Shown here: one piece after another, positions 34,457 to 37,429 of the stretch
Layout of the letters: the number at the start of each line of letters is the position of its first letter
How positions within the stretch are numbered: the stretch's first letter is position 1
Origin: Hydrogenophaga sp.
Lineage (GTDB): Bacteria > Pseudomonadota > Gammaproteobacteria > Burkholderiales > Burkholderiaceae_C
DNA: 42,896 bases
Assembly (NCBI GenBank): GCA_025458915.1
Contig: JALORL010000006.1
Location: 1-42,896, forward strand
Direction of reading: 5' to 3'
Position numbers and translations under genes: made by a program
Notes under the pieces: model-generated
What the model saw: the letters and a program-made list of their open reading frames with translations, nothing else
Database searches by the model: none
Told to the model about the DNA's origin: nothing

Positions 34457-36352
34457 ATGTCGTACGTCGTCCTGGCCCGCAAGTACCGCCCGCGAAATTT
34501 CTCTGAAATGGTCGGTCAGGGGCATGTGGTTCAGGCCCTCACGAACGCGCTGACGACCCAGCGGCTGCACCATGCCTACCTGTTCACCGGCACCCGTGGC
34601 GTCGGCAAGACCACGGTTTCGCGCATTCTGGCCAAGTCGCTCAATTGCCTGGGCGCGGACGGGCAGGGTGGCATTACGGCCGAACCTTGTGGGCAGTGCC
34701 AGGCCTGCACGGACATCGACGCAGGCCGCTTCGTGGACTACACCGAGCTCGACGCAGCGTCCAACCGCGGTGTGGACGAGGTGCAGGCCCTGCTGGAGCA
34801 GGCGGTCTACAAGCCGGTGCAGGGGCGCTTCAAGGTGTTCATGATCGACGAGGTCCACATGCTGACGAACACGGCATTCAACGCCATGTTGAAGACGCTG
34901 GAGGAGCCGCCGGAATACCTCAAGTTCGTTCTCGCGACCACTGACCCGCAGAAGGTACCGGTCACGGTGCTCTCGCGCTGCCTGCAGTTCAACCTGCGGC
35001 CGATGGCACCCGACACGGTGCTGGAGCACCTGCAGCAAGTGCTGCAGGCCGAATCCGTTCCATCTGAGCTGCCTGCCCTGCGGCTGCTGTCGCGGGCGGC
35101 CCGCGGCTCCATGCGCGATGCGCTCTCACTGACCGATCAGGCCATTGCCTTCGGTGGTGGTGAGCTGCGGGAGGCGACGGTACGGCAGATGCTCGGAGCG
35201 GTGGACCGGTCGTATGTGCTTCGGCTCATCGACGCCCTGGCCCGCAGCGATGGTGCCGTGGTGGTCGACACGGTGGAAGCCCTCCGCGTCAATGGCCTCA
35301 GTGCTGCGTCGGCCCTGGAGGAGATGACGGGCTTGCTGCAGCGAATGGCCGTGCTGCAAGCGGTTGCGGATCGGGCTGACGCCCACGACCTGGACGACCC
35401 CGACGCGCCCGAGGTGCTGCGCCTGGCCGGTGCACTCCCGGCAGACGAAACCCAGTTGTTGTACAGCCTCTGTCTGCATGGCCGCGCCGAGCTGGGCCTT
35501 GCGCCGGACGAATACGCGGCGCTGACCATGGTGCTGTTGCGGCTGCTGGCATTCAAGCCAGGGGCGGAAAAAAAAACTCTGAAAACTGAGGCGGTGTCGT
35601 CCGCTCCGGCCAACCGCGCTGCGTCACAGGATGGCGGGACACTTGCTGAACCTTCCCGGCCATTGACCGCAGCTCGGGAAGAGGGTGCCGCGCCCGGCGC
35701 CTCGGGGCCTGCACGCGCCGTCCCTGCTGCACCGACGCGCGAACTGCCTGCGGACCACGGTCGTCCGACTGCTGTGGCCAAGGCGCCTTGGATGCAACCA
35801 CAAACCCCACCTTGGGAAGCGTCGCCCGCAGCGGATCCGGCATCCGCACTGGCGGAAACTGGGCGGGTGGTGTCGGTTCCTGTCCGTGACCCCGGACTGT
35901 CGGAGCGGCTGGAGCAGCGGCGACCGGCGCAGCCTGCTGCGACTGGGTTGTCTGTGCACCCCTCCGCAGAAGGCGATTTCTGGTTTGACACAGTCATGGC
36001 CCTGATCCGGGCAGAGCGCATCACGGCGCTGGTCCGCGAGCTCGGTCTGCAATCCCAGCTGGTGGCGCGGGATGCCGGCCAGTGGGTGTTGCGGGTGGAG
36101 CGTGAATCGCTCAACCAGGGCAACAACCGTGAGCGTCTGGCCACGGCCCTGGCCACGTTGGGTCACGAAGTGCGCCTGGTGGTGGAGGTGGGGCGGGTGA
36201 CCGACTCGCCAGCCCTGCGGGTGCAACAGGAAAACCAGCGCCGACAGCAGGAAGCCGAGCGCACCATCATGGACGACCCGTTCGTGCAGAACATGATGCG
36301 CGACTTTGGCGGCAGAATCGTGCCAGGAAGCCTCAAGGCCATCAGCCACTGA
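34457..36352 (+). CDS. dnaX: DNA polymerase III subunit gamma/tau
   Basis: MSYVVLARKYRPRNFSEMVGQGHVVQAL, GTRGVGKTT, DEVHMLT; followed by ybaB and recR. Confidence 0.97.
   Translation: MSYVVLARKYRPRNFSEMVGQGHVVQALTNALTTQRLHHAYLFTGTRGVGKTTVSRILAKSLNCLGADGQGGITAEPCGQCQACTDIDAGRFVDYTELDAASNRGVDEVQALLEQAVYKPVQGRFKVFMIDEVHMLTNTAFNAMLKTLEEPPEYLKFVLATTDPQKVPVTVLSRCLQFNLRPMAPDTVLEHLQQVLQAESVPSELPALRLLSRAARGSMRDALSLTDQAIAFGGGELREATVRQMLGAVDRSYVLRLIDALARSDGAVVVDTVEALRVNGLSAASALEEMTGLLQRMAVLQAVADRADAHDLDDPDAPEVLRLAGALPADETQLLYSLCLHGRAELGLAPDEYAALTMVLLRLLAFKPGAEKKTLKTEAVSSAPANRAASQDGGTLAEPSRPLTAAREEGAAPGASGPARAVPAAPTRELPADHGRPTAVAKAPWMQPQTPPWEASPAADPASALAETGRVVSVPVRDPGLSERLEQRRPAQPAATGLSVHPSAEGDFWFDTVMALIRAERITALVRELGLQSQLVARDAGQWVLRVERESLNQGNNRERLATALATLGHEVRLVVEVGRVTDSPALRVQQENQRRQQEAERTIMDDPFVQNMMRDFGGRIVPGSLKAISH
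35568..35576 (+). promoter_or_regulatory. A9 slippery run in dnaX (candidate gamma/tau recoding or transcriptional slippage site)
   Basis: GCG GAA AAA AAA ACT CTG AAA ACT GAG; +1A reads AAC TCT GAA AAC TGA, -1A reads CTC TGA. Confidence 0.75.
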
Positions 36353-36442: not shown

Positions 36443-36775
36443 ATGTTCAACAAAGGACAACTTGCCGGACTCATGAAGCAGGCCCAGGCCATGCAGGACA
36501 ACCTCAAGAAGGCGCAGGACGAACTCGCCTTCATCGAGGTCACGGGCGAGTCGGGCGCCGGGCTGGTGAAGGTGCTGATGACCTGCAAGCACGATGTCAA
36601 GCGCGTCACCATCGACCCCAGCCTGCTTGCCGATGACAAGGACATGCTGGAGGACCTTGTGGCGGCTGCGTTCAACGCGGCAGTCCGCAAGGCCGAAGAA
36701 ACCACCCAAGAGAAAATGGGCAAGCTCACCGCTGGCATGCCGGGCCTGCCGGGTGGCATGAAGTTCCCGTTCTGA
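36443..36775 (+). CDS. ybaB: YbaB/EbfC nucleoid-associated protein
   Basis: [23 protein letters not shown]...[30 protein letters not shown]. Confidence 0.95.
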
Positions 36776-36823
36776 CGCGACGCGCACGCGCCCTGCGCAA
36801 CGCCGGACCGACGCCCTACCTGC

Positions 36824-37429
36824 ATGGCCGACTCGCATTCCCTTGAATTGCTGGTTCAAGGCCTGCGCCGCCTGCCTGGCGTGGGAGTGAAGTCGGCCCA
36901 GCGCATGGCGTTCCACCTGCTCCAGCACGACCGTCCGGGAGCATTGCAACTGGCTGCCGCGCTGGAACACGCCTGCAGCCATGTGCGCCACTGTGCCTTG
37001 TGCCACACCTTCACCGAGGACGCGGTGTGCCCGACCTGTCTGGACACGCGCCGGGACCGGAGTCTGCTGTGTGTGCTGGAGAACCCTGCCGATCAGTCAG
37101 CCATGGAGCGGACTGGCGCCTACAAGGGCCTGTACTTCGTCCTGATGGGAAAACTCAGCCCATTGGACGGGGTGGGGCCACGCGAGATCGGCGTCCAGAA
37201 ACTGCTGGATCGGGTGGATACGCTGGTGGAGGGCCAGCGTGAAGTCCAGGAGGTGATCCTGGCTACCAACTTCACCGCAGAGGGCGAGACCACGGCGCAC
37301 GTGATCGCCCAGGCACTCAAATCGAGGGGCGTGAAGGTCACCCGCCTGGCGCGGGGCGTGCCGGTGGGCAGCGAACTGGAGTATGTGGATCTGGGCACCA
37401 TCGCCCATGCCCTTGTCGATCGGCGCTGA
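36824..37429 (+). CDS. recR: Recombination protein RecR
   Basis: [20 protein letters not shown]; zinc-finger cysteines; Toprim region; [25 protein letters not shown]. Confidence 0.96.

Follow-up and report, generated by a model that had tools for sequence, protein, structure and literature searches.

The 42,896-nucleotide stretch of Hydrogenophaga-like DNA analyzed here (hereafter the window) encodes, at positions 34457–36352 of its forward strand, a 631-residue DnaX, the tau/gamma subunit of DNA polymerase III (ATG start at 34457; stop codon at 36350–36352), which is matched by TIGR02397 and by the Pfam models PF13177, PF22608, PF12169 and PF12170. The Pfam boundaries assign residues 1–365 to domains I–III, with domain III itself matching 238–365, and residues 502–620 to domain V. 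About six codons past domain III, where the linker begins, the same strand carries a run of nine A residues (35568–35576; hereafter A9), bounded by G on its 5' side and by C on its 3' side and thus of exactly nine in the window sequence. It is read in frame as (G)AA AAA AAA A(CT) within codons 371–374, the frame across it being GAA AAA AAA ACT CTG, with Glu371-Lys372-Lys373 as the encoded residues. Both of the other frames are closed shortly downstream: a TGA in the +1 frame is the second codon past the tract (35580–35582) and would be met by mRNAs with 8 or 11 A's, while a TGA in the −1 frame (35587–35589) would be met by mRNAs with 10 or 13 A's or following a −1 ribosomal slip; both stops are kept in relatives. 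In silico translation predicts 377 residues ending in EKKNSEN (40.9 kDa) for an mRNA with 10 A's, 374 ending in EKKL (40.6 kDa) for one with 8, 375 ending in EKKKL for one with 11, and complete tau plus a single extra lysine for one with 12. A first-pass annotation of this DNA had noted the run at about codon 371, just past the region expected to be domain III, and had predicted KKNSEN-stop upon gain of an A and KKL-stop upon loss of one, with a gamma-like product of about 374–377 residues; the placement is borne out by the sequence and by Pfam, and the translations are correct (374–378 residues in our reckoning).

We propose that the A9 tract is a programmed transcriptional slippage site of the Thermus type, a reading that we consider probable. 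RNA polymerase would realign on the nine template T's to produce dnaX mRNAs with 8, 9, 10, 11 or more A's; those with 9 or 12 would be translated into full-length tau of 631 or 632 residues, and translation of the others would terminate within one to six codons to yield a gamma of about 374–378 residues and about 41 kDa. The segment common to tau and the predicted gamma (34457–35575) comprises domains I–III, a few linker residues and the EKK; hence, gamma would retain the ATPase and clamp-loading domains but lose the C-terminus that binds helicase and polymerase. Truncated past domain III, DnaX should still join the clamp loader, without a hold on either the polymerase (domain V) or the helicase (domain IV). 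We infer that slippage occurs here, and with an efficiency that would allow a functional gamma to accumulate.

The anatomy of the site, its conservation, the selection for stops in both frames and the lack of conserved ribosomal stimulators are directly seen in the genes compared. For this comparison, we assembled 273 dnaX loci, of which 34 come from the genus, 80 from named relatives, 90 from members of its family sampled at about one per genus, and 69 from the order's remaining families, and counted a run when at least eight A's lay no more than 40 codons past domain III. Peptide patterns, one of which spans part of the site, served to find the 80 named loci, and this might have introduced a slight bias; the genus, family and order sets came from a domain I–III profile and are free of it. 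A run is present in 34/34 loci of the genus, 80/80 of the named relatives, 58/90 of the family and 6/69 of the other families, and its length is exactly nine throughout the genus, named and family sets, save for a single locus (L199) with eight. On a FastTree phylogeny of domains I–III, there is one clade of 173 genes (local support 86), in which 170 have A9, L199 has A8, L140 has A_AAA_AAG instead and L201 has neither; A9 is absent from nearby branches of the family and from most other families. This distribution fits a single gain followed by rare loss, with the exact point of gain being uncertain as the support values are local and many inner branches weak. The comparative evidence, with conservation across the genus and most of the sampled relatives, is much stronger than the first-pass annotation had expected. 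Judging from these genes, the tract is a clade-wide, selected recoding site.

The linker around the tract is otherwise unalignable, and the tract itself lies anywhere from 1 to 25 codons past domain III among the clade genes. The columns next to it have undergone about 40–80 parsimony changes among the A9 genes; the A columns score zero because the set was selected for them, and the fair figure for their constancy is 170/173. The codon usage at the tract is equally strict. Both lysine codons are AAA in 170/170 genes, as against 39% of the lysine codons elsewhere in these genes; the codon preceding them is always NAA (GAA in 162, CAA in 8, never GAG or CAG), a form accounting for 5% of linker codons; and the codon following them is always ANN (ACN for threonine in 148, AGY for serine in 22, the latter residue being encoded by AGY alone), a form accounting for 13%. 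L095, with AAA AAA AAA GTC, retains nine A's in a different phase. Thus, as far as can be read from the genes themselves, it is the nucleotides of the tract that are conserved and not the protein. This bears on the possibility that the run is retained for some other reason, such as a Lys-Lys motif in the protein or an element acting in DNA or RNA, with the stops merely limiting the damage from accidental slips. Consistent with it, the flanking bases are conserved beyond what slippage and the stops need. However, a protein motif would permit AAG and GAG, of which there are none in the 170 genes, and the residues on either side of the lysines vary (E, Q or K before; T or S after) while the A's are constant; we accordingly rejected the protein-motif explanation. 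Moreover, a single synonymous substitution would suffice to abolish a slippery run that carried a cost, yet the run has been kept together with stops in both frames, which argues for its use. On balance, we regard retention for such other reasons as quite improbable.

Nor is the tract readily ascribed to chance or error. It is the sole A9 in the window, which has no T9. The genome to which the window belongs, a Hydrogenophaga-like metagenome-assembled genome of 3.19 Mb and 81% completeness, holds just three exact A9/T9 runs when both strands are counted, and hence the dnaX run is not a chance occurrence; each of the remaining runs sits a short way before a predicted gene start, in one case of an aroG-like (DAHP synthase) gene and in the other of a transporter-like gene. 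Across 40 genomes of the genus, the count ranges from 1 to 13 per genome, and in one of them (G008) the dnaX run (G008:C2:741013) is the only one. An assembly artefact was rejected as a source, as isolate genomes possess the run too (L063, L064, L086 and L112).

The stops are constrained as well. In 153/170 genes, the second codon after the run is a +1-frame stop, where codon shuffles average 7.3 with a maximum of 14; the −1-frame stop falls within eight codons in 140/170 (shuffle average 29.7, maximum 45), and both stops do so in 134/170 (average 4.4, maximum 13 across 300 codon shuffles); since related genes are not independent, these counts should not be taken as formal probabilities. Both stops are likewise within eight codons in 49/57 of the profile-drawn family set with about one gene per genus, as against 0/23 of the family members lacking A9 near the same place and 2–5 of the 170 at points 20–50 codons further along the same linkers. 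A stronger sign of selection than the counts comes from codon changes that preserve the stop: one and the same stop is built from differing codons among relatives, CTG at the site precedes A in 131/132 cases compared with 16% elsewhere, and CTA, which makes up 1.2% of leucine codons, occurs 17 times at the site, each time before A or G. Taken with the conservation of the nucleotides, these stops support the first-pass proposal of a gamma/tau frameshift site in dnaX.

For RNA polymerase to slip, a run must be about as long as the RNA–DNA hybrid, and the resulting transcripts are spread over both frames. Hence, the conserved length of nine together with stops in both frames fits this mechanism, with the +1-frame stop in particular being needed for slippage and not for −1 ribosomal frameshifting. 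That same stop, the nearest and best conserved of the two, might alternatively be thought to terminate a +1 ribosomal frameshift on AAA_A, in which peptidyl-tRNA-Lys would move forward onto AAA, with the ninth A serving in the re-pairing, and gamma ending at CTC TGA. Such an event would need neither the first two A's nor the −1-frame stop, and its A site offers no consistent slow or stop codon, with ACT, ACA, AGC and AGT all occurring; we give it hardly any credence.

The more serious competitor is programmed −1 ribosomal frameshifting on A_AAA_AAA, like that of E. coli dnaX, where the heptamer is A_AAA_AAG. The heptamer stands in the right phase in all the A9 genes, the −1-frame stop is near in most of them, and both mechanisms could work at a single site. 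What this alternative leaves unexplained are the first and ninth A's, which are held even though they lie outside the ribosomal heptamer, and the +1-frame stop at the second codon. The stimulators expected of it are also wanting. Across the clade, internal Shine–Dalgarno sequences are not enriched relative to codon shuffles (mean energy −3.97 versus −3.51; strong matches 14% versus 13%), and the window's own AGGGG (35560–35564) lies just 4 nt before the heptamer. We found no conserved, positioned downstream hairpin across the clade, the folding excess being slight and unpositioned. The weak 4-bp hairpin GCGG/CCGC remarked upon in the first-pass annotation does exist in the window, yet the predicted folding of this region does not surpass that of its shuffles (z −0.31), and we rejected it as a stimulator, since it is neither positioned nor conserved. 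An upstream hairpin near −60 to −13 is stronger than codon shuffles; it too was rejected as a signal because A9-lacking relatives show the same at the end of domain III, and it most likely stems from the conserved protein. Rfam yielded no match. We thus deem −1 frameshifting unlikely as the source of gamma: the conserved nine-A length, the stops in both frames, the constancy of the first and ninth A's and the lack of a conserved Shine–Dalgarno sequence or positioned hairpin all favor slippage. On the mechanism, which had initially been left undecided between the Thermus and E. coli types, the comparative evidence tilts towards the former.

Several considerations nevertheless weigh against transcriptional slippage as the full account. 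First, because A9 contains A_AAA_AAA in the right phase, −1 ribosomal slipping could be promoted as well. Second, slippage on A9 depends on the RNA polymerase involved. Third, the flanks are conserved beyond the stops, and the signal may exceed a plain homopolymer. Their consensus is GGC[G/T]G-A9-C[T/A]CTGA (GGCGG-A9-CTCTGA in the window, 35563–35582), with positions −5 to −1 and +9 to +11 being conserved as judged by parsimony changes per column and by codon-choice controls: the base at −2 is never C (GCC in 0/120 alanine codons at the site versus 54% before GAA elsewhere), and the threonine after the lysines is encoded by ACT or ACA, not ACC or ACG, in 140/148 cases, as opposed to 11% before CTN elsewhere. 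These flanks may tune slippage. Fourth, possession of two tRNA-Lys species has been proposed as a rationale for slippage over frameshifting, albeit not a strictly defining one (PMC5009743). In a pattern search, as distinct from a tRNA scan, tRNA-Lys(CUU) matched 105/131 genomes of the family, with no match in the window genome, in a further genome (G001) or in 17/58 tract-bearing genomes of the family sample; hence, tRNA-Lys content shows no clear link to the tract, and the published rationale does not readily explain the distribution.

The exceptional L140 (genome G087) lies inside the clade on a long branch of the domain I–III tree. Where its relatives have A9, it has an in-frame A_AAA_AAG (at about reverse-complement position 2628 of its 4080-base locus), preceded by AGAGGAG about 15 nt upstream, followed from 6 nt downstream by a 12-bp imperfect hairpin (−17.4 kcal/mol; z −1.8), and with a −1-frame TGA one codon later. 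The Shine–Dalgarno spacing in E. coli dnaX is roughly 10 nt, and that of L140 is longer. The presence of these parts within the clade lends some support to −1 frameshifting, although it is in L140 alone that A_AAA_AAG replaces the tract. They suggest an E. coli-like cassette that has taken the place of A9, and by extension that the two mechanisms can replace each other; as a single case of modest folding significance, the switch is suggestive and not proof. The tRNA content does not readily explain the choice of mechanism, as G087 lacks a tRNA-Lys(CUU) match by the same pattern search just as the 17 tract-bearing genomes do. We tentatively entertain an evolutionary scenario, possible though short of probable, wherein the Comamonadaceae-like Burkholderiales gained a Thermus-type site early and have since maintained it under strong selection, with one lineage or more (L140) later exchanging it for an E. 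coli-type frameshift cassette; it would then be the making of gamma and not the mechanism that is preserved, with the flanks forming part of a sequence-specific slippage signal.

Certain other dnaX genes of the order merit mention. L167, from family f45, has AAGGAGG 7 nt before A_AAA_AAG with a −1-frame stop about four codons on, and looks like a frameshift site of the E. coli or Neisseria type. Sporadic A9 or A10 runs in the linkers of other families (L171, L180, L184, L259 and L290), several with near off-frame stops, may be independent gains or chance occurrences in AT-richer genomes. L009 and L265, from family f13, have A10 situated 67–89 codons past domain III, close to where the C-terminal domain begins; in both, the second codon after it is a +1-frame stop, and it may be a separate recoding site. 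Two dnaX matches (G128:C1:4381447-4382521 and G109:C1:2319407-2320327) are broken or shortened within domains I–III, which suggests a frameshift or an assembly error. In the window, dnaX is followed at 36443–37429 by ybaB/ebfC-like and then recR-like genes, in the usual dnaX-ybaB-recR order.

It has long been asked whether gamma is of importance beyond the enterobacteria and Thermus. UV resistance and Pol IV mutagenesis have been connected with gamma in E. coli (PMC5009743), and a 2012 review held that most other bacteria are without a dnaX frameshift signature and may make no gamma (PMC3290774). On its sequence evidence, the A9 clade is an exception to that generalization: these common environmental bacteria, a large clade, have a site with no evident purpose other than the making of a short DnaX. 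The clade thereby offers many natural replicates for testing the role of gamma and the causes of RNA polymerase slipping, and perhaps an instance in which slippage and ribosomal frameshifting have replaced each other within one gene. Our literature search on dnaX slippage in Comamonadaceae or Acidovorax and on dnaX frameshifting in betaproteobacteria, with most subscription papers lying outside its coverage, found no prior report; the predicted slippage is of a kind already known, and it is its occurrence in a Comamonadaceae-like clade that appears to be new.

Set against the known systems, the window dnaX is closest in design to that of Thermus thermophilus, which has A9 with stops in both frames and, according to reviews, makes about half of its product in the short form (PMC5009743, PMC1088944). 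The two share nine A's on the coding strand past the clamp-loader core, a tau encoded by a single ORF, near stops in both other frames and a predicted short gamma-like product; in the window dnaX, in contrast, slippage is predicted from sequence, the flanks are conserved, and the host belongs to a different phylum and a GC-rich lineage. With E. coli, it has in common gamma and tau from one gene, truncation past domain III, a slippery A-rich site and a near −1 stop, but it differs in having no AAG heptamer, conserved internal Shine–Dalgarno sequence or positioned hairpin and in its extra conserved +1 stop, with L140 being the only member of the clade to show E. coli-like parts. The two-ORF dnaX genes of Chloroherpeton, Chlorobium and others likewise feature a poly-A tract, for which transcriptional realignment has been proposed (PMC3711429); however, they require the frameshift for tau, whereas the tau of the window dnaX is the in-frame product. 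Finally, Caulobacter, also a proteobacterium, derives two DnaX forms, one short and one long, from a single gene, but its gamma arises via proteolysis and not from a recoding signal (PMC5009743).
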